Below, one piece after another: positions 2,052 through 49,112 of a stretch of 64,000 nucleotides of DNA; position 1 is the stretch's first letter; each line of letters opens with the position of its first letter. The position numbers and the translations under genes were made by a program. The stretch spans positions 5,838,001-5,902,000 of the forward strand of contig NZ_CP085876.1 in assembly GCF_013284245.2 (NCBI RefSeq). Direction: 5' to 3'. Under the pieces are notes generated by a model. It did no database searches and was not told where the DNA came from. It worked only from the letters and a program-made list of their open reading frames with translations. This stretch comes from Brevibacillus sp. DP1.3A. Lineage in GTDB: Bacteria > Bacillota > Bacilli > Brevibacillales > Brevibacillaceae.

Positions 2052-2615
2052 ATGTTTAAAAAAGCCTTGATCATCCTGACATTAAGCTCAGTTGTCGCTG
2101 TACCAAGTGTAGCCGCACAAGCCCAAGGGGCATCTCTACCTCTACAGGAGAAGGCGCCAGCCTCCCAAAAAACAATAATCAAAAATGCCGCATTTGGTCA
2201 GGAAGTCTGGGTAATGCTCGGCTCCCCTATTCCAAGCGGTTGGGTCGTAATCAGATCTTCTGGCAATATGAACCTGATTAAGGATATCAACAATGCTCCT
2301 GCCGGTTACGAGGTTTGGGTAATGCTCGGCTCCCCTATGCCTGACGGATGGGTCGTGATCAGAAGTACTGGGACTATGAACCTGATTAAAAATTTGAACA
2401 GCGCCTCTTCTAATGAGGAAGTTTGGGTGATGCTCGGCTCCCCTATGCCTGACGGATGGGTTGTCATCAGAAGTACTGGGACTATGAACCTGATTAAAAA
2501 TTTGAACAACGTTTCTTCTGGTCAGGAGGTATGGGTGATGCTAGGCTCGCCTATTCCTGACGGATGGATTGTGATCAGAAGTTCGGGGAATATGAACCTG
2601 ATCAAGCGCCTATAG
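2052..2615 (+). CDS. secreted protein of four 36-residue tandem repeats, unknown function
   Basis: 187-residue exported protein. A signal peptide (MFKK, hydrophobic core ALIILTLSSVVAV, AxA-type site near SVAAQA) is followed by a linker of about 25 residues and four repeats beginning at residues 51, 87, 123 and 159. Each repeat has the pattern EVWVMLGSPxPxGWVVIRSxG, then xMNLIK and a variable Asn/Ser spacer; DNA periodicity is 108 bases. The ATG at 2052 is preferred over ATG 2046 because GAAAGG lies 9 bases upstream and the signal peptide is then compact. The last repeat ends the protein. The gene is monocistronic with its own terminator. I do not recognise the repeat as a named domain; Trp and Pro-Gly content suggests a small beta module exposed outside the cell. 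Confidence 0.8.
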   Translation: MFKKALIILTLSSVVAVPSVAAQAQGASLPLQEKAPASQKTIIKNAAFGQEVWVMLGSPIPSGWVVIRSSGNMNLIKDINNAPAGYEVWVMLGSPMPDGWVVIRSTGTMNLIKNLNSASSNEEVWVMLGSPMPDGWVVIRSTGTMNLIKNLNNVSSGQEVWVMLGSPIPDGWIVIRSSGNMNLIKRL

Positions 2616-2650
2616 GCTAATCAGAATAATTGGAAAACCGTATCCAACTC

Positions 2651-2680
2651 CTACCCTTTAGTAAAAGGGTAGGTTTTTTT
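2651..2680 (+). terminator. rho-independent terminator of the repeat-protein gene
   Basis: CTACCCTTTA pairs with TAAAAGGGTAG across a two-base loop, followed by eight T. Confidence 0.85.
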
Positions 2681-2979
2681 ATTCCCCCATTCATCCTTTT
2701 TGATCAGACCCCCCGACAAATTTCGGTAAAAAACGACTATTGAAATGGCATGAACGATTAGAAAACATGGTAAAGAAGTTCTATTATTGTAAATTTTTTG
2801 TAATTAACTTGAAAATACTGGATTCGTATTTTACCATTAGAAAAACAATTTTAAACTACTTAAAAGAGATGGACTAGTAGGAATGAAATTGTTTTTGTAA
2901 TCAAAAAAAAATGAGAAGGAGGTCCACAGAGAACTGTACTGGGAAACACGAAAACTCTTGCTTGGAAAGGAGTCTCATG
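2681..2979. other. AT-rich intergenic region upstream of the metalloprotease
   Basis: No gene is supported here. The stretch holds an inverted repeat AAAATAC-7-GTATTTT (2812-2832) next to a TTGAAA box, which may be the promoter or operator of the protease gene. A strong AAGGAGG at about 2917-2923 has no start codon at a usable distance and is probably fortuitous. Confidence 0.4.
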
Positions 2980-3747
2980 ATGTTAGAAAGAATTTTGGGT
3001 AAACTTTTATTGTTCACTATTACTCTTGTCACTCTTGTAAATGGATATTTTGTTATGCCGACAAACGCACAGGATCAATCCGAATATCGCGTAGATTTTA
3101 GCGGTGTATCCGCTCCGATCCCTGTCAATATCCGTACCGGACCGACTACTTCTGCTGCTATCATCGACAGGCTTCAACTAAATACCCGTGTACAATTTTC
3201 TGGTTGGACCCGAGGCACCTCGTTAACGGACTATTGGACAAGTGCCCCTGATAATAGATGGTTCTTCTACGAGAAAAACGGCGTGAAATACTATGTTGCG
3301 TCTGCTTTTATTAATGGAAACCCACCTGCAACCGATCAAAACAAGCCCTTCGTTTCGTATCAGGTAACCATTACGACGAATATCCCTGCTCTCAGACAGG
3401 CCTATGAAAATGCCATACGGAATTGGAACAACACAGGCATTGTTTCATTAACACCAACACAAAATGCTCCCATTACCTTAGGTGAAGGTTATGCGAGGGG
3501 GTATGATGGATTTGGCTGGTGGCAATCGAATGGTTCCAGAATAACTGGTGGCACAGTCATCCAATGGAACAGAGTGAGCAACAGAAACGCCGCTTATTTA
3601 GAAGCTTTGGCTACTCATGAGATTGGACATGTGCTGCGACTAAATCATAGGTCGGATCACTCGATCATGAATAACTCTTGGTTAACGAGAATCACTGGTC
3701 CTACCCAAAACGACATCAATGAGCTTAGAAACATCTATAGTCGATAA
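2980..3747 (+). CDS. secreted SH3-like / matrixin-like zinc metalloprotease
   Basis: 255 residues. A signal peptide (MLERILGKLLLFTITLVTLV, cleavage near TNAQD) leads into a bacterial SH3-like region (about residues 35-115, with 'VNIRTGPTTSAAIIDRL'), then a metalloprotease domain. The zinc motif HEIGHVLRLNH is at about residues 213-223 and a Met-turn-like SIMNN follows. It matches HExxHxxxxxH; the Gly normal at the eighth position of metzincins is Arg. ATG 2980 is 7 bases from AAAGGAG; ATG 2977 is the alternative. The SH3 part suggests binding to the cell wall, and the enzyme should act outside the cell. It is followed directly by a terminator, so it is probably monocistronic. Confidence 0.8.
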   Translation: MLERILGKLLLFTITLVTLVNGYFVMPTNAQDQSEYRVDFSGVSAPIPVNIRTGPTTSAAIIDRLQLNTRVQFSGWTRGTSLTDYWTSAPDNRWFFYEKNGVKYYVASAFINGNPPATDQNKPFVSYQVTITTNIPALRQAYENAIRNWNNTGIVSLTPTQNAPITLGEGYARGYDGFGWWQSNGSRITGGTVIQWNRVSNRNAAYLEALATHEIGHVLRLNHRSDHSIMNNSWLTRITGPTQNDINELRNIYSR

Positions 3748-3759
3748 AGGACCTCTTTT

Positions 3760-3788
3760 GGCTGTCGAGAAAGTCGACGGCCTTTTTT
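3760..3788 (+). terminator. terminator of the metalloprotease gene
   Basis: GGCTGTCGA-gaaag-TCGACGGCC hairpin followed by six T. Confidence 0.8.
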
Positions 3789-3886
3789 GATGAACAGCCC
3801 CACTCTTGCTGATTGACTCCTTTCCTTCTCATTCATCTGCGTATACTATTATAAATATTCCTAACAATTACCAAAGGAGAATCGCC

Positions 3887-4411
3887 ATGAATAATCAAAT
3901 TCTCAGTGCGCGCCTGACTCTCACCAAAGTGGCATTACCCGATTGGGAGCTGATCCGCTCCATCTATTCCAACCCGACACTGATGGAGCATATCGGAGCG
4001 ACCATGAGCGATGAAGATATCCGCCGTAACTTTGAGAAAGAACTCGCTCCGTGGAGCCTAGAATCGACCCACTGGCTAACCTGGATCATACGTGAAACCG
4101 ACTCCGGTAACGATGTTGGCTTGATTAGCATCTGCACTCGTAACCGAGAAACTCTCACTGCGGAAGTAGGCTTCATCATACTGGACGGATTCAAAGGCAA
4201 GGGCTATGCAACGGAAGCAATCAGACGCGTATTTGATTTTGCTGTAGATACTTTTGGATTCAAAAAATTTACGGCTGTTTGTTCTGAAGAACATGTGGCT
4301 TCACGACGCGTTTTGGAGAAGGCTGGAATGAAGCTGGATAAAATCGTGCCCGAAAGCACTGAAATTGCAGGTAAGATGGTGAGTGACTGCATTTATTCGT
4401 TGGAGAAGTAA
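3887..4411 (+). CDS. GNAT family N-acetyltransferase (RimJ/RimL-like)
   Basis: 174-residue cytoplasmic acetyl-CoA-dependent acetyltransferase. It opens MNNQILSARLTLTKV, the beta strand typical of RimJ/RimL-like enzymes ('RL.L...'), and the acetyl-CoA loop is 'GFKGKGYATEAIRRVFDFA' at about residues 100-120, followed by the 'SRRVLEKAGM' motif. AAAGGAGA lies 7 bases before the ATG at 3887; the longer frame upstream has no ribosome binding site. Substrate unknown; it stands alone between converging and tandem neighbours. Confidence 0.82.
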   Translation: MNNQILSARLTLTKVALPDWELIRSIYSNPTLMEHIGATMSDEDIRRNFEKELAPWSLESTHWLTWIIRETDSGNDVGLISICTRNRETLTAEVGFIILDGFKGKGYATEAIRRVFDFAVDTFGFKKFTAVCSEEHVASRRVLEKAGMKLDKIVPESTEIAGKMVSDCIYSLEK

Positions 4412-4483
4412 GCGTATCTAAGATGGACTCCCGAGCAAATCCGCTGATTTCCATAGCATGCCCGTACCTATGAAATGATTTAC

Positions 4484-29699: not shown

Positions 29700-30863
29700 T
29701 TGAACGCTTCAACTGCATCTATACGCTCCCGTTTCCTGCTCATTTGTTTTTTTGTATTGATCTCATTTTTTCTCATTCCAACTGCTTACATGCATGAACC
29801 CACCATTCCCTTTATCATCTCTCTGATCATCATCTTCTGCTTCCTGCTGGTGTTTCTCAGACCAAAAAAAAATTGGAGACCTTTTCAAAAAGACATCGCC
29901 ATTATCGTTCTTGGTACCGTGTCATTTATAAAGGTTCTATATGTAGGGCAAGAGATCGGTCTATCCTTGCCATTAGTAGCTTTTATTGGATTTCACATTC
30001 TTGAACGCCGCGGATTGTACTATGCGATTTTTTTTGGCACATGCTCCTTTTCATACATGTTCTTTTATAAAGACTATATTTTTGAGGAGGTAATCGGTTA
30101 TGTCGTGGCCTATATCGGATGGTATATAGGTGCACGAGGATTATCTCTTCAAAATCAAGCAAAGGAATCGAGTCAGCAGCATCTTAAACAATTGCAAGAG
30201 GCGCATGTTGAACTTCAGGAAGCTCATTCTGAACTTCAAGCAGCCTCTGTGAATACACTCCGTGCCGCTGTTCTGGAGGAGAGGACCAGAATCGCCCGTG
30301 ATGTTCACGACGCCTTGGGACACAGTCTCACATCGTTAATCGTTCAATTGAATGCCTTGAAATACATGCTACAAGGCGGCCCCAGTGACGCACAGGAGGC
30401 TGTGCGAGACATGCTTTCGGTATCCAAGCAAAGCCTCGATGATATACGCTCGTCTGTACATACATTAGCCGCAGACAAATCCTCTCTGGGAATCACACCG
30501 CTGCGTATACTCTTATCACGAGCACAACAGCATACCGACATCAAAATGCAGTTGATCAGTCCCAATCCAGATATTCCGCTCTCACAGCAGATGACCATTA
30601 CGCTTTACCGGATTCTCCAAGAAGCGATTACCAATTCCATTCGACATTCGGATGCAACAGAGATTTTCATCACGATTGAAAAAAAGCAAAACTTCCTATT
30701 CCTGGCTATTTGGGACAATGGGAATATTACGAATCATCATCAAATCAAACTGGGCTCTGGTTTAACAGGTATCGCAGAACAAACCAAGCAATTAAATGGA
30801 GACCTTTCCTATTCCATTCGAGAGCCCCACGGCTTTCAAATTGACATCAGCTTTCCGCTTTGA
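29700..30863 (+). CDS. NarL-type (HisKA_3) sensor histidine kinase
   Basis: 387 residues: five to six membrane helices with very short loops in 1-150, a coiled coil (about 155-195, 'LKQLQEAHVELQEAHSELQ'), HisKA_3 with phospho-His in 'RTRIARDVHDALGHSLTSL' and HATPase with 'LQEAITNSIRHS' (N box) and 'LGSGLTGIAEQ' (G box). Lack of an extracellular domain suggests sensing within or at the membrane. It starts at TTG 29700; AAGAAAGGAGG lies 8 bases upstream and no ATG is available. Paired with the response regulator downstream, and divergent from the RND operon. Confidence 0.9.
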   Translation: MNASTASIRSRFLLICFFVLISFFLIPTAYMHEPTIPFIISLIIIFCFLLVFLRPKKNWRPFQKDIAIIVLGTVSFIKVLYVGQEIGLSLPLVAFIGFHILERRGLYYAIFFGTCSFSYMFFYKDYIFEEVIGYVVAYIGWYIGARGLSLQNQAKESSQQHLKQLQEAHVELQEAHSELQAASVNTLRAAVLEERTRIARDVHDALGHSLTSLIVQLNALKYMLQGGPSDAQEAVRDMLSVSKQSLDDIRSSVHTLAADKSSLGITPLRILLSRAQQHTDIKMQLISPNPDIPLSQQMTITLYRILQEAITNSIRHSDATEIFITIEKKQNFLFLAIWDNGNITNHHQIKLGSGLTGIAEQTKQLNGDLSYSIREPHGFQIDISFPL

Positions 30864-30898
30864 TAAGCAAATAGCGATATATACGGAGGAATGCCAGC

Positions 30899-31612
30899 AT
30901 GGTAAATCAAAACAAAAAAGAGACCATTCGTGTGGTCCTGGTCGATGACCAAACGATGATCCGTCAAGGATTGGGGTATGTCATAAAAATGCAGAAGGAT
31001 ATGGAAGTAAGCGGGGAGGCTTCTAATGGAGAAGAAGCCGTGAAGCTCGTAGGAGAAATCATTCCTGATGTAGTCTTAATGGATGTACAGATGCCGAACA
31101 TGTCAGGAATCGATGCAACCCGAGAAATCACTCGCCTCCATCCTTCGATAAAAGTATTAATCCTCACAACCTTTGACACGTACGATTACATCGTAGACGG
31201 TATTCGAGCAGGTGCTGTCGGCTATATGCTAAAGGATTCCGATTCACAGGATATGTTGGACCTCATTCGCAGAGCCCATCAGGGAGAGGCACTTTTTTAC
31301 ACGGCTACTGCTGCCAAGGCTCTAGCGGAGGTTCTACAGTTTCAACAAAAGAATCACGAGTCTTCCTCTCATTTTGACTCTGATGCTGACTCTGTGCTTC
31401 CCCCTCTTGTCATGTTAGATCAGTTGACCGACCGAGAGCAGGACGTATTAGAGCAGCTATCCTACGGTAAACGGAACGATCAAATTGCGCAGCACTTGCT
31501 CATTGCCGAGGGAACCGTCAAGACGCATATCCATCGGATTTTGCAGAAAATGGGCGTAGAAGATCGTACACAAGCAGTTGCGAAGGCGATCCGGTATAAA
31601 ATCGTGAAATAA
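30899..31612 (+). CDS. NarL/FixJ-family response regulator
   Basis: 237 residues. Receiver domain (10-130) with Asp62 in 'LMDVQMPNMSGID' and the conserved 'LTTFDTYDYIVDGI', a longer than usual Ser/Asp-rich linker (about 150-175), then LuxR helix-turn-helix (about 180-235, 'LTDREQDVLEQLSYGKRNDQIA'). Cognate of the kinase 35 bases upstream. Target genes cannot be read from the sequence; the divergent RND operon is the nearest candidate but already has a MarR. Confidence 0.92.
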   Translation: MVNQNKKETIRVVLVDDQTMIRQGLGYVIKMQKDMEVSGEASNGEEAVKLVGEIIPDVVLMDVQMPNMSGIDATREITRLHPSIKVLILTTFDTYDYIVDGIRAGAVGYMLKDSDSQDMLDLIRRAHQGEALFYTATAAKALAEVLQFQQKNHESSSHFDSDADSVLPPLVMLDQLTDREQDVLEQLSYGKRNDQIAQHLLIAEGTVKTHIHRILQKMGVEDRTQAVAKAIRYKIVK

Positions 31613-36346: not shown

Positions 36347-36380
36347 AAAAGGAAGAGGGCACTTGTCCTCTTCCTTTTTT
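36347..36380 (+). terminator. terminator of the MarR-MFS operon
   Basis: AAAGGAAGAGG-gcacttgt-CCTCTTCCTTT followed by T. Confidence 0.9.
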
Positions 36381-36405
36381 CATGGTGTATGGATTTGCTC
36401 GCGAA

Positions 36406-37815
36406 TTACTTCTCTCCCCCCACGGAACACCCCTGTAAGGTAAAAGCAAATACAATCTCCTCCCCTTCTATCTGCACATCATACTGAGCCTGATGTTTGT
36501 CCAGCACGGCTTTGACGATGGATAGTCCTAGTCCCGTTCCGCTAAGCTGTTTACTGCGAGACTGCTCGATCACATAAAATGGCTCCCAAATTTGCTTCAA
36601 TTGCGCGGCGTCTATACGTCCGACCCCATTTTTGATCGAAAAAACGACGGTATCCCCCGCCTGTCTGATCGAAATATCAATGCGTCCATTTGTCGTGTAC
36701 GTGACAGCATTGCCAAGCAGATTACCGAGCACCATTTCCAGCTTGTCACGATCAGCCCACACACAATCATCCGCATCCGATTCCTTCTGGATCGTGAGCT
36801 GGATTGCTTCCTGCTGGATAAGCAACTGGTATTTCTCCAAGGTTTGTTCCAGCACAGCATGAAGAGAGACGGCCGTAAACGAATATTGATCCGTTTGATA
36901 GCGGGACAATTCCAACAGCTTATTGACCAACTCCGCGATACCGTCTGTCTGTTTTTCAATGACGGTCAGGAAGGTCCCGTCATCAAGGCCATCCTTGATA
37001 CCCGCTGTATACGCCTTAATTAGAGCTAGTGGTGTTTTTAACTCATGGGAAATATCCGAAATAAACGTACGCAGATTCCGGTTTCTCGCTTCCAGCTCTT
37101 CGTGAGCGCGTTGGAGCTTGTCACTCATCCGGTTAATGCTCTGCGCCAATTCCTCCATCTCATCGCCCGTCCGAATGTCTGCCTTTTGAAAACGCAGATT
37201 CGAAATCTCCTCCGCCGTATCCTTCAGTTGTGCAAGTGGGTCAATCATCCGTTTGGCAAACATCCCGCCCACGACAACGGTCAAGAGCAACGCCCCCAGA
37301 AAAATATACGTATTGAACTGATTCACAATGCGAATCGTATCACTGGAATACGCAACCGATTCACTGATCGCGAAAACCACTTGCTCCTTCATCATGAACC
37401 GGACGAGTACATTCGATTTCAATTTTTCTTGCATATACAGCTTGTTTACGTATTCTCCATCCTGTAAGGAAGCGACACTCTCCTCGGTGACCCAAAACTT
37501 GCTGAGCGGCAATCCTTTTTGGGCAAAAAGAGCGCGCAGAGCTTCGTTCAAATCATCGTTTTTTCCCGTATACGAAGCATACACTATCGTGACGCGGTAT
37601 TCATTTTCAAGCCGTTCGACCTCTTTTTGCAGAGCATCTGCCGTGAATTCTTCCATCTGGGAAGTAATCGCGGACAACGTATTTTTCTTCTCATACAAAA
37701 AATACTTCGGCAAAAAGAACGTGTTAATGAGAAAAGACAAGACGTACACGACAGCGACCACAATGGCAATCTGCACAAACAGCCGCCGCCCCATCTTATT
37801 TATCCGGATTTTCAA
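36406..37815 (-). CDS. HAMP-type sensor histidine kinase
   Basis: 469 residues: helix 1 (10-32), extracellular sensor of about 130 residues (35-165), helix 2 (170-187), HAMP (190-242), HisKA with phospho-His257 in 'FISDISHELKTPLALI', HATPase with 'LGNLLGNAVTYT' (N box) and 'LSGTGLGLSIVKAV' (G box). It overlaps the response-regulator gene by 20 bases if TTG 37815 is the start; ATG 37794 directly after the regulator stop is the alternative. Last gene of an operon with two envelope-glycan genes, so it probably senses wall or polymer status. Confidence 0.9.
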   Translation of the reverse strand: MKIRINKMGRRLFVQIAIVVAVVYVLSFLINTFFLPKYFLYEKKNTLSAITSQMEEFTADALQKEVERLENEYRVTIVYASYTGKNDDLNEALRALFAQKGLPLSKFWVTEESVASLQDGEYVNKLYMQEKLKSNVLVRFMMKEQVVFAISESVAYSSDTIRIVNQFNTYIFLGALLLTVVVGGMFAKRMIDPLAQLKDTAEEISNLRFQKADIRTGDEMEELAQSINRMSDKLQRAHEELEARNRNLRTFISDISHELKTPLALIKAYTAGIKDGLDDGTFLTVIEKQTDGIAELVNKLLELSRYQTDQYSFTAVSLHAVLEQTLEKYQLLIQQEAIQLTIQKESDADDCVWADRDKLEMVLGNLLGNAVTYTTNGRIDISIRQAGDTVVFSIKNGVGRIDAAQLKQIWEPFYVIEQSRSKQLSGTGLGLSIVKAVLDKHQAQYDVQIEGEEIVFAFTLQGCSVGGEK

Positions 37816-38443
37816 AACTGTACCCCATCCCTCGATGTGTTTTTATCCAGTTATCGCCGATCTTCTCTCGCAAACGGCGAATATGAGTATCCACGGTTCT
37901 TTCCTCACCGAAATAGTCGAATCCCCACACATGATCGAGTAAGGCTTTTCGCGTCAATACTTTCCCTTCATGCTGCACAAAGTACTTCATGAGCTGGAAT
38001 TCCTTGTTGGTCACATGTAGGTCTCGTCCAGCATGGTATATTTTTTGCGCCTCCAAATCCACCTTGATCTGTCCAAACGTGTACTGCCCATCCAGATGCA
38101 GCATCTTTTTGGCACGCACTAACAAGATTCTCGGGTCAAACGGCTTTCGTACGTAATCGTCGGCTCCCGCTTGCAAGGCGTGAAGCTCGTCATCGATTTC
38201 CCCTTTGGCAGTCAGCATCAAGACTTTTACGGTACTGTTTGCCTTGATTTCCTTGCATACCTCGATGCCACTTACTTGAGGCATCATCCAGTCCAGGATC
38301 GCCAGGTCGATTTGTTCGTTGTACACCATATTGAGCGCTTCTTGCCCATCTTTGGCGGTATATGTAGTGAAGCCTTCTTTTTCGAAGTAGGCTTTCACGA
38401 TTTTGACCATGTATTCTTCATCATCCGCGATCAAAATGTTCAT
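37796..38443 (-). CDS. OmpR/PhoB-family response regulator
   Basis: 215 residues: receiver (1-115) with Asp51 in 'ILDWMMPQVSGIE' and Lys in 'VRKPFDPR', then a winged-helix DNA-binding domain (about 125-215, 'NKEFQLMKYFVQHEGKVLTRKALLDHVWG' split over the fold, 'RTVDTHIRRLREKIG'). Its start lies 23 bases inside the MurG-like gene, so it is co-transcribed with glycan genes that it may regulate. Confidence 0.92.
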   Translation of the reverse strand: MNILIADDEEYMVKIVKAYFEKEGFTTYTAKDGQEALNMVYNEQIDLAILDWMMPQVSGIEVCKEIKANSTVKVLMLTAKGEIDDELHALQAGADDYVRKPFDPRILLVRAKKMLHLDGQYTFGQIKVDLEAQKIYHAGRDLHVTNKEFQLMKYFVQHEGKVLTRKALLDHVWGFDYFGEERTVDTHIRRLREKIGDNWIKTHRGMGYSFENPDK

Positions 38444-39503
38444 GCGCAGCTCCTTTTAGCAATGCCCACACCTTGTCGACTGCTCTTTCATCCTTATTTT
38501 TCCTCATTTTCGCCAGATAAGTCTCGCGATTTTTGTACAGGGCAAGGATTCTCGTCACAAACATCTGTGTCGTCATCTGTTCCTGCAAAAGTACATCTGC
38601 GTAACCCGCAGCTTGAAAGTTTTGGGCGTTCACGAGTTGACCTGTACGTGCACCCCCGTTCGTATGCGGGAGGAGAAGCATCGGCTTTTGCAAGGCGAGC
38701 AATTCAGAAATCGCATTGGAACCAGCCCGGGATACAACCACATCGGCAGCTGCCAATAAATGAGCCAATTCCTCTCCTACGAAATCGTACTGCTTATAGC
38801 CCGGGTAATGAACAGAGTAATCGACCTTTCCTTGACCACATATGTGAATGACTTGGAATTCGGACAGCAAATTCGGCAGTGCCTCGCGAACGACACGGTT
38901 GATCGTCTCGGCCCCTTGACTTCCTCCCATGATCAACAGCACGGGCTGTTGTTCATGAAATCCGCAGGCGGTCATTCCACGCAGACGCTGGCCAGCCTTG
39001 AGCGACCCCTTAATGAGCGGCCCGACATGGATCGCTTTTTCGGTGTTTAGCTTTCTCTTTGTTTCCGCAAATGTCGTGCATACTGTATCTGCAAAAGGTA
39101 GGCAAAGCCGATTGGCAAGCCCCATATGCACATCTGGCTCATGAATGATGGTCCTGATCTTGTTCATGCGGGCACCGAGCACAACGGGAACCGAGACGAA
39201 GCCCCCCAGCGAGTACACGACATCCGGCTTTATTTTACGTATCAAGAAATAGGCTTGAAAGATACCGCGGAGCACCTGGAGAACATCCGTTACGTTTTTC
39301 CATGAGAAGTACCTCCGCAGCTTTCCAGTCGAGATACTGTGATACTGTACTGCTTTCTGTGCTTCTACGAGCTGTTTTTCTATTCCTGTCTCAGAGCCGA
39401 TATAGTGAACGCTCCAGCCTTCTTGTAAGCATTTAGGGATCATGACGAGATTGCCTGTTACGTGCCCGGCAGAACCGCCGCCTGTAAACAAAGTGGTCTT
39501 CAT
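38421..39503 (-). CDS. MurG-like UDP-N-acetylglucosamine glycosyltransferase paralogue
   Basis: 360 residues, GT28 fold. N-terminal 'FTGGGSAGHVTGNLVMI' corresponds to the MurG G-loop GGTGGH, second G-loop 'IMGGSQGAETINRVV', and donor-binding 'VVSRAGSNAISELLALQKPMLLLP'. True MurG genes sit in the dcw cluster between ftsW and murB; this copy is instead coupled to a CapD-like dehydratase and a two-component system, so it is probably a paralogue transferring GlcNAc (or a derivative) to a lipid-linked acceptor for an accessory polymer. Overlaps both neighbours (ATGA with the upstream gene). Confidence 0.85.
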   Translation of the reverse strand: MKTTLFTGGGSAGHVTGNLVMIPKCLQEGWSVHYIGSETGIEKQLVEAQKAVQYHSISTGKLRRYFSWKNVTDVLQVLRGIFQAYFLIRKIKPDVVYSLGGFVSVPVVLGARMNKIRTIIHEPDVHMGLANRLCLPFADTVCTTFAETKRKLNTEKAIHVGPLIKGSLKAGQRLRGMTACGFHEQQPVLLIMGGSQGAETINRVVREALPNLLSEFQVIHICGQGKVDYSVHYPGYKQYDFVGEELAHLLAAADVVVSRAGSNAISELLALQKPMLLLPHTNGGARTGQLVNAQNFQAAGYADVLLQEQMTTQMFVTRILALYKNRETYLAKMRKNKDERAVDKVWALLKGAAHEHFDRG

Positions 39504-40483
39504 GACAGGAAACCTCCTGCCCGCAGCATTGCTCTCGTCTCTTCCTTGGTCATGACCATCGACTCGGAATGGAAGCTGGAAAAGTCGACACTCTGATAGG
39601 CAGCGTAATACGCTTGCAGCTCTTCTTGTGGAAAAGCAGGCAGGATGACAAAGTATTGGTCGTTCAAGTCAATCGCTCTGTCGCTTTCCATCTCGGACAC
39701 CAGCATTTCATATCGCTTTTCACCCGGGCGCATCCCGATGGTGACAATACGGCTGCCCTCTGCTCCTGCCTCTTCTCTGAGGACCTCTGCTATATCCATG
39801 ATCCGGCAAGAGGGCATCTTCAGTACAAAGGTTTCCCCGCCCAGACTGCTATGCGTAGCCGTAAAGAGCAGGTGGATCGCCTCTTCCAGACTCAAGAAAA
39901 ATCTCGTCATTTGCCCATCTGTCACCCCAAGATCCAAACCTTGTTGCAATTGGCTTTTGAAAAGGGGAATCACACTGCCTGTCGATCCCAAAACATTGCC
40001 GCTTCGCACACAAACAAACCGGGTACTAACATCCCGTGTGTTGGCCTGAATGATCAGCCGCTCCCCAATCGCCTTGGTCATCCCATACGTACTGGAAGGA
40101 TTGGAAGCCTTGTCTGTGGAGACGTAGATGACTTTTTGCACACGATTGGCAATGGCAGCCTCGATGACATTTTGCGTGCCGATCACGTTTGTTTTGAAGG
40201 CAATATACGGTTGGTTTTCGCAAATCGGGACATGCTTCAATGCCGCAAGATGATACACATAATCGACCTGCTGGCACGCCTGCATCAATTCCTCCTGATC
40301 CCGAATGTCTCCATTCATAAAACGCAGTCGTTTATCTTGAAAATGATGGCTCATTTCTACTTGTAGTGCTTCATTGCGTGAAAAAATACGGATTTCTTTT
40401 GGCTGCTGCGGCAGGAGTTGCTTCACGAGCTCCCAACCCCAAGAACCTGTACCACCCGTTATTAAAATGGTTTTGTTTTTCAT
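39500..40483 (-). CDS. CapD/FlaA1-type NAD-dependent nucleotide-sugar dehydratase/epimerase
   Basis: 327-residue extended short-chain dehydrogenase. NAD-binding 'LITGGTGSWGWELV' (GxxGxxG), catalytic 'VSTDKASNPSSTYGMTKAIGE' with Asp124, Lys125, Tyr133 and Lys137, as in UDP-GlcNAc 4,6-dehydratases (PseB/FlaA1) and the soluble half of CapD. It lacks the membrane half of CapD. Product is likely a 4-keto-6-deoxy or epimerised UDP-HexNAc used by the adjacent MurG-like transferase. ATG 40483 has GGAGG 8 bases upstream; the frame extends further but overlaps the neighbouring terminator. Confidence 0.88.
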   Translation of the reverse strand: MKNKTILITGGTGSWGWELVKQLLPQQPKEIRIFSRNEALQVEMSHHFQDKRLRFMNGDIRDQEELMQACQQVDYVYHLAALKHVPICENQPYIAFKTNVIGTQNVIEAAIANRVQKVIYVSTDKASNPSSTYGMTKAIGERLIIQANTRDVSTRFVCVRSGNVLGSTGSVIPLFKSQLQQGLDLGVTDGQMTRFFLSLEEAIHLLFTATHSSLGGETFVLKMPSCRIMDIAEVLREEAGAEGSRIVTIGMRPGEKRYEMLVSEMESDRAIDLNDQYFVILPAFPQEELQAYYAAYQSVDFSSFHSESMVMTKEETRAMLRAGGFLS

Positions 40484-40501
40484 CTGCTGTACCTCCGAAG
40501 C

Positions 40502-40522
40502 ATTCATGTGACTGACATGAAT
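40502..40522. promoter_or_regulatory. inverted repeat directly upstream of the CapD-like gene
   Basis: ATTCATGT-gactg-ACATGAAT lies five bases upstream of the GGAGG site. It may be an operator or an RNA hairpin that affects translation of the first gene of the operon. Confidence 0.45.
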
Positions 40523-40571
40523 ATCGTAGAGGTCGTGTGTTACACCAGTATGACAAATCTTCGTAGATACG

Positions 40572-40606
40572 AAAAAAATGACGCCAGATACGATCTCTAA
40601 CGTCAC
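40572..40606 (-). terminator. terminator of the phosphoesterase gene
   Basis: TGACGTTAGA pairs with TCTGGCGTCA (two G-U pairs) and is followed by seven T on the minus strand. Confidence 0.75.
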
Positions 40607-40613
40607 TTTGTCC

Positions 40614-45387: not shown

Positions 45388-45912
45388 TTATGTGTTAACC
45401 AACGATAAATTTTCTAACGCGTGTTGCATCGCATCGCGTGGAAATATTTGCGGTAATTTAGACATGGGATATTGATTCGACAATCGATTGATTTGATTCA
45501 ATTCCTCTACACCGATTTCCCTTACGTTATTATCCATATTGTACCTTGCCAACAAAATCATGTCGTTCAATTGACTAATTATGCTTCTATCACTTGTCTG
45601 AGTGAAAGTAGCCTCACTAGCATGATGCAAATACTTTTGAATTAACGATTGCTCTATGCCATCCGCAAGAAGATTCTCAGAGATTTTTTCTGAAAATATC
45701 TGAGCAAATCGTTTAAAGTCTGCTTTCTTTAATCCATAGATGATGAAATTGTACCTGGTCACATTATTCATCACTGCTACACACTTCCTGCGATTCAGTA
45801 AAATCAGGTGAGCATGCCATCTGTATAATGGCTGTGAAACCATTTTCTCCTTATCGGATAGCGTTACGGGTAGTTCCTCTGCAAGCTTTTTGGTGCATTG
45901 GAGGGTAATCAT
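45388..45912 (-). CDS. small cytoplasmic protein, DUF6933-like
   Basis: 174 residues, no signal peptide or membrane helix. It opens MITLQCTKKLAEEL and contains 'LYRWHAHLILLNRRKCVAVMNNVTRY' in outline followed by 'IYGLKKADFKRFAQIF', a pattern I associate with DUF6933 proteins of unknown function. Its start overlaps the stop of the hybrid kinase (ATGA), so it is translationally coupled and may take part in the same signalling chain. Family assignment is from memory and moderately sure. Confidence 0.65.
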   Translation of the reverse strand: MITLQCTKKLAEELPVTLSDKEKMVSQPLYRWHAHLILLNRRKCVAVMNNVTRYNFIIYGLKKADFKRFAQIFSEKISENLLADGIEQSLIQKYLHHASEATFTQTSDRSIISQLNDMILLARYNMDNNVREIGVEELNQINRLSNQYPMSKLPQIFPRDAMQHALENLSLVNT

Positions 45913-48900
45913 GCCTGTTCACCTCGATGTTTTTCAGTTAAAGCCCGATACGGTATGACAAAGGAGACCGTCGTTCCTTCACCCGGCTTACTCGTGATGC
46001 GCAGGCCCTTCCCGTACATTTGCGTCAGTCTCCGATTCGTGTTGGACACTCCGATTCCGCCTCTTTCCTTCTTCGACAAGTCGAGAATTTGCCGCACAGT
46101 CGCTTCCTCCATCCCGATACCGTCATCCTTCACCTCAAAAAGAGTAGCGTTCTTTTGCCGGACGATGCGGATATGGAGAGTTCCCCCCTCTATTCTGTTA
46201 AAAAGACCATGGTTGATTGCATTCTCAACCAACGGCTGAATGGTGAGTGGCGGGATGAGCAGATCGATGTCAGGCTCAACCTCCCACACGATCTGTATCC
46301 GCTCGCCAAATCGTTCCTCTTCAATGTAAAGATAGGCTTGGACGAGCTCCAGCTCATGGGAGAGTGTAACTTGTTTTCCTGTATTCAAAAAGTCGAAGCT
46401 GATATGCAAGAAGGCGGTAAACGCATCCCCGAGTTTACGCATCTTCTCCGTATCAATGTCACTCAACGCCATAATCGAGCTAAGTGTGTTGAACAAGAAG
46501 TGCGGGTGAATCTGCGCCTGCAAGTAGGCAGCCTCCATGCGCAATCGTTCATCGACTGTTTGCTTGAGCGTCGTCAACGACCAGACGCGATATTTCAGCT
46601 CCATTCCATCGACTGGTTTGCAAACATAGTCATTCGCACCAGACAAATACCCGGTGTATACATCCTCAGACTGGCTTCGCGCAGTTAAGAGCAAAATCGG
46701 AAGCTCGGAAACAGAGAAATGCTCCCTGACCTTTTGCGTCAACTCATAGCCCGACATATGCGGCATCATGACATCGATGATAAGCAAGTCCCACTGCTCT
46801 GTAAAAAGCAGATCGAGCGCGTCTCTTGGCGATGTGCAAGTAGTGATTTGGTATTGCGAGGATGAGAGCATTCGATCCAGCACCCTTAGGTTAACCGGGT
46901 CGTCATCGATCGCCAAAATGTTCGCCTTTCTTTCAACAAACGCATGTGCAGCTGTTTCCTGAAAAGCCAAGATATCTGGAGCTTCACTATGCCTCATCTG
47001 GTTGATAGCCGTCACTTGATTGTTGTTATCTATCTGCTCCACATATTGGGTCTCTGCTGCTCTCATCTCATCTGTACTAACCACAGGCAGCCAGAAGCTA
47101 AATACGGAACCTTTGCCCGGTTCAGACTCGACTCTCAGCTCGCTATCATGCAGGTCTACCAGCTGTGTACAAATAGCAAGACCGAGGCCGATTCCTCCTC
47201 CATCGTTCGTTGCTTGAGCTCCCTGCTCATACGGCAAAAATATACGTGCCTTGGTATACTCATCCATCCCAATTCCTGTATCGGATACATAGATCACCAC
47301 CTGTCCGTCCACGATCTCAGCAGAAACGACGACAGATCCTTTTTCCGTGAATTTGAGTGCATTGTGAACAAGATTGAACAGAATCTGGACTAGCCGCTTC
47401 TCATCTGCCAAGATTGGCGGGATGGACTCTGGTATGTCCATTTTCAGTTGAACAGGCTTGCCTTCTACCATGTAGGTGAGCATGCTGATGATTCCGGAAA
47501 CAACCGATTGAATATGCAACGGCTTCTTCTGCAACACGATATGCTTGTCCTGCAATCGTACGACATCTAGCAAATCGTCTAGTAAATGCGACATTCTGCG
47601 GCTGATCGTGACTAAGAGCTCCATGTCCTGCGTGCTGCGACCACCCATGACATGCTTTTCATTGTTGACGACAGTCTGGGCGATATTCATGATGCCGTGC
47701 AATGGCGTCCTCAGCTCGTGAGAGGTATGGGCCAGAAACTGGTCTTTGAGCTTGTCAGCTTCTTTCAATTGCTCCGTTAGCTTTGCCTTTTCCTCTGAAT
47801 TGCGAAAGAATCGCTTGAACCAGTAAGCAGAAAAACTAACAAGTGCAGCAATCAGGTCGAGCGGATAATACACGTACTTGATATCGATGATTTTATATTC
47901 CATCATTGCGGACCAAATGACATTGGAAAAAATACTCATTGCAGCAATGAGCAAAAACACAGCGTCATGCTTGTTTTGCATGAGCATGCGGCTGATTCTG
48001 AAAATAAACAGCAACAACGGGCCGAAATAAATAATGACCAAAAATGGCGTTCCAGCTAAAATATACACCCATTGTGCCGTTCCCAGTATGATGACTGCCG
48101 AAAAAAGACTGAGCACGGAAAAATACGCCCTGAACGGTTTGGCGTTTTCTTTCTCCCCCTGATCAGATAGACTTCTGATCAATAATATCATCAGCAAAGG
48201 CTGCCATATGTAGGTGAGCACTTCCACCTTTAGCGCCCATGTATAATCGATCGGGAGCCAAAGTAACAGCAGATTGTCATAATCAGACACAGTCTTTATC
48301 CCCACACAGGAAAGCAACAGCAAAAACACCAGAAACTCTTTGTGACGGGCATTCAATATGTACAGGATGCCGGCATACAAGCCATGTAGCAACAAGATGA
48401 GGAAGGTTGTCATCTGGAAGCCGATAGAATACCAACGTTCGGTGTCAACAGCGGCCTGCGACCCGAAGTAAATCGATCTGACGATGCCCCCTTCGAGTGG
48501 ATTATGAAAGTTGGCCGTTCGGACAAGCACTTCAATGACCTTTGCATCACCTGCAATGTACGTAACCGTGAAGGATGACTTCCGCGGCGTGTACTCTTCC
48601 GCTGTTGTCGCAGGCACTCCGCCTCTGGCTAATATCTCTCCGTTAACCTCTACGGTAGAAGATGCTTCCACTTGCGGAACCCATAAGGTGTATGGCTGAT
48701 TTAGCGGTTGATCGACCAAGATCCGTAAACGGTATGTTCCATAACCATACGATGATGGAGAGTCCCTGGAAAAAGCGCTGCTCCAATTGCCAGGCACTTG
48801 AAGGAATTGTCGTTCGTCATTCGATGATTGCTTGAAATCTTCATGCGTGATCAAAGATTCAGGGAAAAACTCCCATTCCCCATCCAGTGAAATGGACGGG

Positions 48901-49112
48901 GAATTTTCAAAGTCCCACCCGCGCATATCAAGAACCCCTTGAACCGCACGCGGATGCTCTGGAAACGCATGAAACGAAAACCAGAATGTTCGAAGACCTA
49001 GGAGAAATGCTAAAAACAAGAGAAGAATGACAAGATGCTTACTTATGAGTGCTTTTGAATTGCGCTGATTATGGGTACTTAGCTTTATCATAGTAAGATC
49101 ATCTTTCGACAC
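45909..49112 (-). CDS. 7TMR-DISM hybrid sensor kinase with receiver and second LytS-type kinase module
   Basis: 1067 residues. In order: signal-anchor helix (about 25-48), extracellular jelly-roll (about 60-215), seven-helix 7TMR-DISM block (about 235-430), HisKA with 'HTSHELRTPLHGI', HATPase ('NLVHNALKF', 'DTGIGMDEY', 'GGIGLGLAI'), receiver ('IDDDPVNLRVL', phospho-Asp in 'LIIDVMMPHMSG', 'CKPVDG'), then a LytS-like His_kinase segment 'LQAQIHPHFLFNTLSSI' with its own HATPase ('PLVENAINHGL', 'DDGIGM'). Two complete kinase cores therefore flank one receiver. Start GTG 49112 (AAGGG about 10 bases upstream) or ATG 49091. Sugar-like or polymer ligands are possible for the ectodomain. Confidence 0.88.
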   Translation of the reverse strand: MSKDDLTMIKLSTHNQRNSKALISKHLVILLLFLAFLLGLRTFWFSFHAFPEHPRAVQGVLDMRGWDFENSPSISLDGEWEFFPESLITHEDFKQSSNDERQFLQVPGNWSSAFSRDSPSSYGYGTYRLRILVDQPLNQPYTLWVPQVEASSTVEVNGEILARGGVPATTAEEYTPRKSSFTVTYIAGDAKVIEVLVRTANFHNPLEGGIVRSIYFGSQAAVDTERWYSIGFQMTTFLILLLHGLYAGILYILNARHKEFLVFLLLLSCVGIKTVSDYDNLLLLWLPIDYTWALKVEVLTYIWQPLLMILLIRSLSDQGEKENAKPFRAYFSVLSLFSAVIILGTAQWVYILAGTPFLVIIYFGPLLLFIFRISRMLMQNKHDAVFLLIAAMSIFSNVIWSAMMEYKIIDIKYVYYPLDLIAALVSFSAYWFKRFFRNSEEKAKLTEQLKEADKLKDQFLAHTSHELRTPLHGIMNIAQTVVNNEKHVMGGRSTQDMELLVTISRRMSHLLDDLLDVVRLQDKHIVLQKKPLHIQSVVSGIISMLTYMVEGKPVQLKMDIPESIPPILADEKRLVQILFNLVHNALKFTEKGSVVVSAEIVDGQVVIYVSDTGIGMDEYTKARIFLPYEQGAQATNDGGGIGLGLAICTQLVDLHDSELRVESEPGKGSVFSFWLPVVSTDEMRAAETQYVEQIDNNNQVTAINQMRHSEAPDILAFQETAAHAFVERKANILAIDDDPVNLRVLDRMLSSSQYQITTCTSPRDALDLLFTEQWDLLIIDVMMPHMSGYELTQKVREHFSVSELPILLLTARSQSEDVYTGYLSGANDYVCKPVDGMELKYRVWSLTTLKQTVDERLRMEAAYLQAQIHPHFLFNTLSSIMALSDIDTEKMRKLGDAFTAFLHISFDFLNTGKQVTLSHELELVQAYLYIEEERFGERIQIVWEVEPDIDLLIPPLTIQPLVENAINHGLFNRIEGGTLHIRIVRQKNATLFEVKDDGIGMEEATVRQILDLSKKERGGIGVSNTNRRLTQMYGKGLRITSKPGEGTTVSFVIPYRALTEKHRGEQA

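Follow-up and report, generated by a model that had tools for sequence, protein, structure and literature searches.

The genome of Brevibacillus sp. DP1.3A (GCF_013284245.2; here genome G000, contig C1, NZ_CP085876.1, 6.66 Mb) carries a four-gene operon in which a dehydratase (DH) and a MurG-like glycosyltransferase are joined to a two-component system (TCS) made up of a response regulator (RR) and a histidine kinase (HK). The operon lies in the stretch from 5,838,001 to 5,902,000 of the forward strand, 64,000 nucleotides in all and referred to below as the window, whose own numbering is used for its features; the genomes compared with it are labelled G and the loci fetched from them L, each with a number. 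We consider it probable that the operon is a self-activating envelope-glycan cassette, in which a 4-keto-6-deoxy-HexNAc donor would be made and then moved onto a lipid-linked acceptor under the cassette's own TCS. The operon very probably controls its own synthesis, as the sequence-only reading of this DNA had proposed, through a conserved candidate operator in front of it. We infer its sugar chemistry from the 4,6-dehydratase site of the DH and from the MurG fold and altered donor and acceptor loops of its partner, which is also as far as the lipid-linked amino-sugar pathway suggested in that reading is supported. MurG is usually regarded as a single-purpose essential enzyme. Here a MurG clade apparently re-tooled at its substrate loops is paired with a sugar-modifying dehydratase and has its own operator, in a cassette apparently gained or lost as a unit; the operator offers a ready reporter for finding the signal, and the pair would allow a brief assay with two enzymes for a new lipid-linked sugar.

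The minus strand carries all four genes, which form a single overlapping operon, an arrangement first read from the sequence and borne out by the open reading frames (ORFs) of the window and their Pfam matches. The DH (39500..40483, 327 amino acids) is a short-chain dehydrogenase/reductase (SDR) resembling UDP-GlcNAc 4,6-dehydratases of the FlaA1/PseB/CapE type (Polysacc_synt_2), and its start was taken as the ATG at 40483, which is preceded by a good ribosome site, because the ORF-tool extension to 40702 would overlap the upstream phosphoesterase. It is followed by the MurG-like GT28 glycosyltransferase (38421..39503, 360 amino acids), in which the HEQN-equivalent and donor loops are altered, by the OmpR-type RR (37796..38443, 215 amino acids) with a receiver and a winged helix (PF00072, PF00486), and by the HAMP-containing sensor kinase (36406..37815; PF00512, PF02518, PF00672), which starts at a TTG at 37815 or, alternatively, at an ATG at 37794. 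DH and MurG overlap by 4 nucleotides as ATGA (39500-39503) and MurG and RR by 23 (38421-38443), both as first described; the 20-nucleotide overlap claimed for RR and HK holds only with the TTG start, as the ATG would leave a 1-nucleotide gap. Among the 20 other loci with the four-gene block or the DH-MurG pair, the 4-nucleotide overlap recurs in 12 (once as TTGA), is longer in all 7 loci of the L105 group, and in L200 the murG is broken. The MurG-RR overlap is not general, with a 53-nucleotide gap in L102. Translation of MurG is coupled to that of DH, and the two genes have been inherited together.

The case for self-control is carried by a box, TGYCAYAYTGGYGTAACA, that stands 9 bases ahead of a -10-like element and is common to loci whose upstream DNA is otherwise unlike. 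In the window, the candidate RR operator TGTCATACTGGTGTAACA occupies 40538..40555 on the minus strand at the place of the -35, with half sites TGTCAT N5 TGTAAC and an 11-bp period, and the -10 element TACGAT (40523..40528, minus strand) stands at a fixed distance from it. When 12 promoters were aligned, with the -10 at positions 28-33, its A and its last T were found in 12/12 and its first T in 11/12. The pattern TGYCAYNYTGNYGTAACR, allowing up to two mismatches, occurs upstream of DH in all 21 block or pair loci, in 16 of them exactly. At the same stringency it occurs before none of the 47 solitary murG genes of the NF009102 type fetched from a class-wide survey of 398 genomes, 182 of which had such matches (best 3 mismatches, in 3), and before none of 29 rows of DH paralogues, which represent 27 distinct genes as two were entered twice (best 4 mismatches). 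The related pattern TGYCAYNNTGGYGTAACA, with up to three mismatches, was found in 35 of 67 upstream regions versus 5 of 670 shuffled ones, and a site with at most one mismatch in 56 of 66 TCS or pair loci versus 2 of 66 with the pattern reversed, and in 0/29 solitary-murG loci. The box was first spotted by reading upstream regions and was afterwards tested with shuffles and controls; a search for operators as exact-word direct repeats of 5-6-mers gave no clear winner (at most 5 of 60 regions, and 2 or fewer in the ten shuffles listed).

Sites within 250 bp upstream of a gene precede DH in 18 loci, a metallophosphoesterase in 17, a GH129-related gene in 14, the RR in 13 and a GH5 gene in 8, where the names metallophosphoesterase, GH129-related and GH5 rest on one Pfam-scanned representative each. 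In G207 and G330, which carry the pair without an adjacent TCS, the box is still present with one mismatch. In G233, the second and only other exact box lies nearly 3 Mb away and precedes a GH5-metallophosphoesterase pair, whose members are 69% and 73% identical to genes adjoining the TCS elsewhere. The controls, the enrichment at TCS loci, G207 and G330, and the G233 sites, taken together, make the box the likely binding site of the RR family. At locus L265 (G233:C1:4576500-4583500), positions 2196-4416 hold this GH5-type gene and the metallophosphoesterase behind the exact box, likely an unlinked second target of the regulator family.

In the genome of DP1.3A itself, the sole exact box match is the operon's own, and a wider regulon found no support at the stringency tested, with 24 sites versus 15 for the reversed pattern at up to two mismatches and, for a looser pattern at up to one mismatch, 4 versus 3. 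No box match was seen in G003, G008 and G184, picked as block-free, in a search of 16 genomes. The half sites (TGYCAY-N5-YGTAAC) and 11-bp period of the box resemble the WalR consensus, given as TGTWAH-N5-TGTWAH (PMC9210968).

The MurG-like protein scores 452.6 bits against the NF009102 model (cut-off 339) and 225 bits against TIGR01133, below its cut-off of 250.25, and its gene does not lie in the division and cell wall (dcw) cluster. The canonical murG is found at G000:C1:2533919-2534998 (332.8 bits against TIGR01133), at a dcw-type site between a SpoVE/FtsW-type gene, incomplete at the edge of the stretch examined, and murB; this rules out the window's copy as the essential murG and agrees with its being accessory, as had been supposed. 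It had been counted as a second MurG, and is in fact the third MurG-type gene of its genome, since a further NF009102-type gene, 51% identical at the protein level, lies at C1:4201200-4202249 (L032). This type of gene is common in the genus, and L032 has neither DH nor TCS alongside. All 13 of the 21 block or pair genomes that were tested have at least one MurG-type gene beyond the block copy. The NF009102 family as a whole can include true MurG enzymes, because some Bacilli seem to have no MurG other than a protein of this type, as in G050 and G112 with one TIGR01133 match apiece.

The MurG proteins of the block form one clade in a quick tree (SH-aLRT 97) and differ from their solitary relatives at positions where these hardly vary. 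In a comparison of 19 block rows, which excludes the broken copies of L171 and L200 and the pieces of L167, S123 (47/47 solitary rows) is replaced by P in 19/19, D288 (47/47) by G in 18/19, L280 (47/47) by H in 18/19, and L196 (43/47) by Q in 17/19. The HEQN acceptor loop reads HEPD in the window, with E-P-D in 19/19 block rows, and its His is kept in 5 rows, the window's copy among them, and lost in 14. In the solitary proteins, each letter of HES(D), T and P of the loop HESD..TPG and each of S, R, G, D and Q of the loop SRGDQ is found in 46 or 47 of 47 rows, and these loops are altered in the block rows. Seven of 15 clade-diagnostic residues fall within 45 substrate-loop positions of the 360 (hypergeometric p 0.0009, the loops having been drawn after the residues were seen). 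Compared with MurG and NF009102 proteins, the block copy shares the GT28 fold and both GT28 domains, with the GH of the G-loop (H14), GGS, SRAG and Q289 in 19/19 block rows; it differs in having xEPD in place of HEQN or HESD, GG...GQ in place of SRGDQ before Q289, and mostly GGSQ in place of GGSL, as well as in its score below the TIGR01133 cut-off and its separate clade. In E. coli MurG, Gln289, Gln288, Arg164 and Glu269 have been described as important for UDP-GlcNAc (PMC10966019, PMC8256705), and lipid I has been placed at the HEQN loop (PMC8256705). On this comparison, the block MurG appears to be a MurG re-tooled for another donor, another acceptor or both.

The DH matches PF02719 with an E value of 2e-94, scored on the longer ORF, and S, T, D, K, Y and K of its active site STDK..Y..K are each present in 19/19 aligned block rows (a comparison that omits L153 and L208), as is each letter of the [ST]DK..Y..K site and TGGTGS cofactor loop of UDP-GlcNAc 4,6-dehydratases of the FlaA1/PseB type. 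The pattern [ST]DK..Y..K has been tabulated for inverting 4,6-dehydratases and Pen (PMC8987622, Table 1). The score against the PseB equivalog is 314.5 bits, under the cut-off of 407.75, and the closest solved structures are 6bwc, 4j2o, 2gn4 and 3vvb. The stereochemistry of the DH is not predictable, because Pdeg of B. cereus, whose sequence is like those of inverting enzymes, had no 5-epimerase activity in its description (PMC4514872). The position of one block row, L193, is loose in the DH tree.

The DH belongs to the same SDR family as Pdeg of the Pdeg/Preq UDP-QuiNAc operon of B. cereus, CapE, FlaA1/PseB and Pen (PMC4514872, PMC8987622), shares the DK..Y..K active site with FlaA1/PseB and Pen (PMC8987622), and overlaps MurG by 4 nucleotides just as Pdeg overlaps Preq (PMC4514872). 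Unlike in systems of the Pdeg/Preq type, no 4-reductase, aminotransferase or epimerase adjoins it, and its partner is a MurG-like transferase. The DH paralogues of L117-L119 adjoin UDP-GlcNAc 2-epimerase-type and RmlD-type genes (by Pfam for L117), neither of which is in the block. A single query for a partner 4-ketoreductase in the genome of DP1.3A had no match, an empty return that is uninformative for that query. Direct transfer of the keto sugar is possible, because the completed capsule glycan of type 5 pneumococci contains 4-keto-6-deoxy-HexNAc (PMC10027807).

In the mechanism we propose, the HK would sense a signal at the cell envelope and the phosphorylated RR would bind the box and activate the DH-MurG-RR-HK operon, a positive loop for which the only exact operator in the genome is the operon's own. 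The DH, judging from its family and active site, would convert UDP-GlcNAc to UDP-4-keto-6-deoxy-HexNAc, and the MurG-like enzyme would take this product rather than UDP-GlcNAc, as suggested by the coupled translation and shared inheritance of the two genes and by the altered substrate loops. At the inner leaflet, the sugar would be passed to an acceptor that is linked to a polyprenyl and resembles lipid I, and under envelope stress the cell would thereby gain an altered lipid-linked glycan for its wall or for a secondary wall polymer. A more specific form of this mechanism, which we hold to be doubtful, is that the cassette provides an inducible second kind of lipid II, in which lipid I, or a carrier like it, bears 4-keto-6-deoxy-HexNAc in place of GlcNAc, under the self-activating sensor; if so, the resulting subunit would lack a free 4-OH and would cap the glycan strands or escape agents that bind lipid II.

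The RR and HK score under the cut-offs of all NCBIfam models listed for them (25 each), the RR below those of PhoB, YycF and VanR, and the best-scoring models are PhoB/YycF for the RR (YycF 189.3 vs 340) and WalK for the HK (177.1 vs 725). The extracytoplasmic sensor region of the HK spans about residues 35-165, by eye and by model, and N90, F107, W108, Q129, K131 and L132 within the sensor are invariant in 31 aligned orthologues that are 35-96% identical to the window's kinase. Because these residues are invariant also where the neighbouring targets differ, a single shared signal is suggested. The predicted model of the HK is of low confidence (pTM 0.42), too uncertain to name a sensor fold, and the strands and helices at residues 76-154 are at most consistent with a PAS-like domain.

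The block is kept beyond the strain, in 19 genomes of two families and in two gene orders, which rules out a strain-specific oddity and answers the question of its conservation. In a genus survey of 26 Brevibacillus genomes, an NF009102-type murG was found in 18 (E up to 1e-40) and the block only in G000, G013 and G019. Class-wide, a DH adjoins a MurG in at least seven genomes (G000, G013, G019, G133, G207, G330 and G233), a lower bound tallied by eye from the listed match places. Of these, G133, from the same family as Brevibacillus, has the same gene order with orthologues 72/62/65/48% identical, and G233, from another family, has the order RR-HK-DH-MurG. A survey of 394 Paenibacillaceae-type genomes with the G233 kinase (E up to 1e-80), which may miss DH-MurG pairs without a TCS, gave matches in 67, of which 61 loci were fetched (G233 as L105, and 60 others), leaving out G539, G542, G546, G569, G573 and G586. 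A DH and a complete or broken MurG stand beside the TCS in 15 of these loci, namely in 7 near-identical L105-type genomes and in G719, G723, G409, G660, G507, G461, G436 and G641; with the three Brevibacillus and G133 they make up the 19. The idea that sugar genes and TCS are one unit stands for these 19 genomes and fails as a rule: G207 and G330 have the pair with no TCS next to it, and 46 of the 61 Paenibacillaceae-type loci have the same TCS family with no adjoining pair. Throughout L152-L211, the TCS family repeatedly neighbours GH129/DUF5696-related, GH5 or metallophosphoesterase genes, often with the box. No DH was found in the neighbourhoods of the 47 solitary murG genes, where there was one RR at only 35% identity and a few kinase-like genes at 23-25%.

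Sister Brevibacillus genomes lack precisely this operon. The missing segment (36400..40611, about 4.2 kb, its left edge at 36381-36400 depending on the genome) comprises the whole operon and its promoter, and clean empty sites, with the flanks 0 to 37 bp apart, are present in G023, G005 and G012. In G006, G007 and G002, 786-928 bp of other DNA lie between the flanks, and none of the four genes has left a recognisable remnant there. Flank identity across these six genomes is 87-95%. By this comparison, the operon was gained or lost as one piece. In the three genomes with other DNA (L270, L271 and L272), the 786-928 bp between the genes for a major facilitator superfamily (MFS) protein and the phosphoesterase hold short ORFs only, the longest of 110 amino acids, and the block may occupy a variable site. 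In G018, about 420 bp separate the MFS gene from that of the phosphoesterase.

Several observations weigh against a self-activating glycan cassette. The donor, the acceptor, the signal and the binding of the RR to the box are all predictions, and the box pattern was derived partly from the same upstream regions in which it was tested. No site with at most one mismatch was found in 10 of the 66 loci, the box before DH is recognised in L171 and L189 only at two mismatches, and the -10 of L200 reads CAAGAT. Of the 26 Brevibacillus genomes, 23 yielded no such operon, and there are copies that seem to be decaying, with a truncated murG in G409, a split murG in G461 and a split HK in G436, which may be assembly errors, as may G724, where DH is missing and murG is in pieces. 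The clade-specific residues of MurG could be explained by phylogeny alone, and the overall MurG fold is kept in the predicted structure of the window's protein (pLDDT 87.5; first structure matches MurG 1nlm/3s2u), so that the block MurG could still synthesize lipid II.

Among other explanations, van-like antibiotic self-protection or resistance, in which a sensor of lipid II-binding antibiotics would induce an altered cell-wall precursor, is improbable. It has in its favour the patchy distribution of the block as a unit of gain and loss, and murG genes described downstream of van loci in Paenibacillus (PMC9689679) and after vanHAX in some actinobacteria (PMC8698665), where, as here, a TCS stands beside an accessory murG. 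However, no vanHAX-type gene was seen among nine proteins scanned from 32-44 kb of the window or, by eye, among the other ORFs, and the block has a dehydratase instead; the RR and HK fall far under the cut-offs for VanR (166.4 vs 350) and VanS (126.5 vs 400), and members of the same TCS family stand before glycosidases and a phosphoesterase in Paenibacillaceae-type genomes.

An inducible spare synthase, which would make ordinary lipid II from UDP-GlcNAc under stress, with the DH unrelated to it, ranks lower still and is unlikely. Its precedent is MglA of Kitasatospora, an accessory MurG-like enzyme able to make lipid II, whose gene likewise lies outside the dcw cluster and in whose description, which is the basis of the comparison in place of its sequence, no dehydratase is mentioned (PMC8092295). 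The predicted MurG fold and the NF009102-type proteins that seem to serve as sole MurG in G050 and G112 would suit such an enzyme, but the block proteins have lost residues invariant in all 47 solitary ones (S123 in every row, D288 in all but one), 14 of the 19 have lost the His of the HE loop, though not the window's copy, and the coupling and joint inheritance of DH and MurG speak against an unrelated DH.

The least probable alternative is a PhoPR/WalRK-like paralogue responding to phosphate or wall stress and providing a substitute glycolipid or secondary polymer during a shortage of phosphate or wall precursors, which is in keeping with the best models, the OmpR-type RR and HAMP kinase, the direct-repeat-like operator with its 11-bp period and WalR-like half sites, and the metallophosphoesterase as a frequent co-target, but which is opposed by PhoB, YycF and WalK scores under their cut-offs and by an exact-match regulon of a single operon in the genome of DP1.3A, unlike Pho and Wal regulons. 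For the self-activating glycan cassette, no description of a DH, MurG-like, RR and HK combination was found in the open-access literature, among the matches listed, in line with the statement made at the outset from the sequence that no characterised system has this composition.

Further observations concern MurG genes elsewhere and the surroundings of the operon. In G719 (7.5 Mb), nothing scores above the TIGR01133 cut-off, and the best match, a MurG-type gene of 239 bits on C12, may be the working MurG. In G003, the canonical murG match at C1:3797406-3798484 falls into two overlapping pieces, through either a frameshift or an assembly error in this essential gene. A contig scan with the single MurG-like protein of the window returned two close relatives, in Brevibacillus porteri (97% identical) and B. 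fortis (95%), and an alignment query would reach further. PADLOC models of anti-phage defence gave one weak match, to the ATPase region of the kinase (31.5 bits), and no defence set. Scans for promoter and terminator consensus sequences did no better than chance and are given no weight as evidence. A terminator-like hairpin (40575..40609, minus strand), placed by reading the sequence as scan totals were near chance, lies between the upstream phosphoesterase gene and the operon, and a second hairpin, GGAAGAGG...CCTCTTCC (36351..36374), also read from the sequence, lies between the HK and the convergent MFS gene, is likely a shared terminator and is kept at the empty site of L268. Near the operon, at 29700-31612 and 45909-49112 of the window, translations read by eye indicate a sensor kinase/LuxR-type regulator pair and a large hybrid kinase-like protein.

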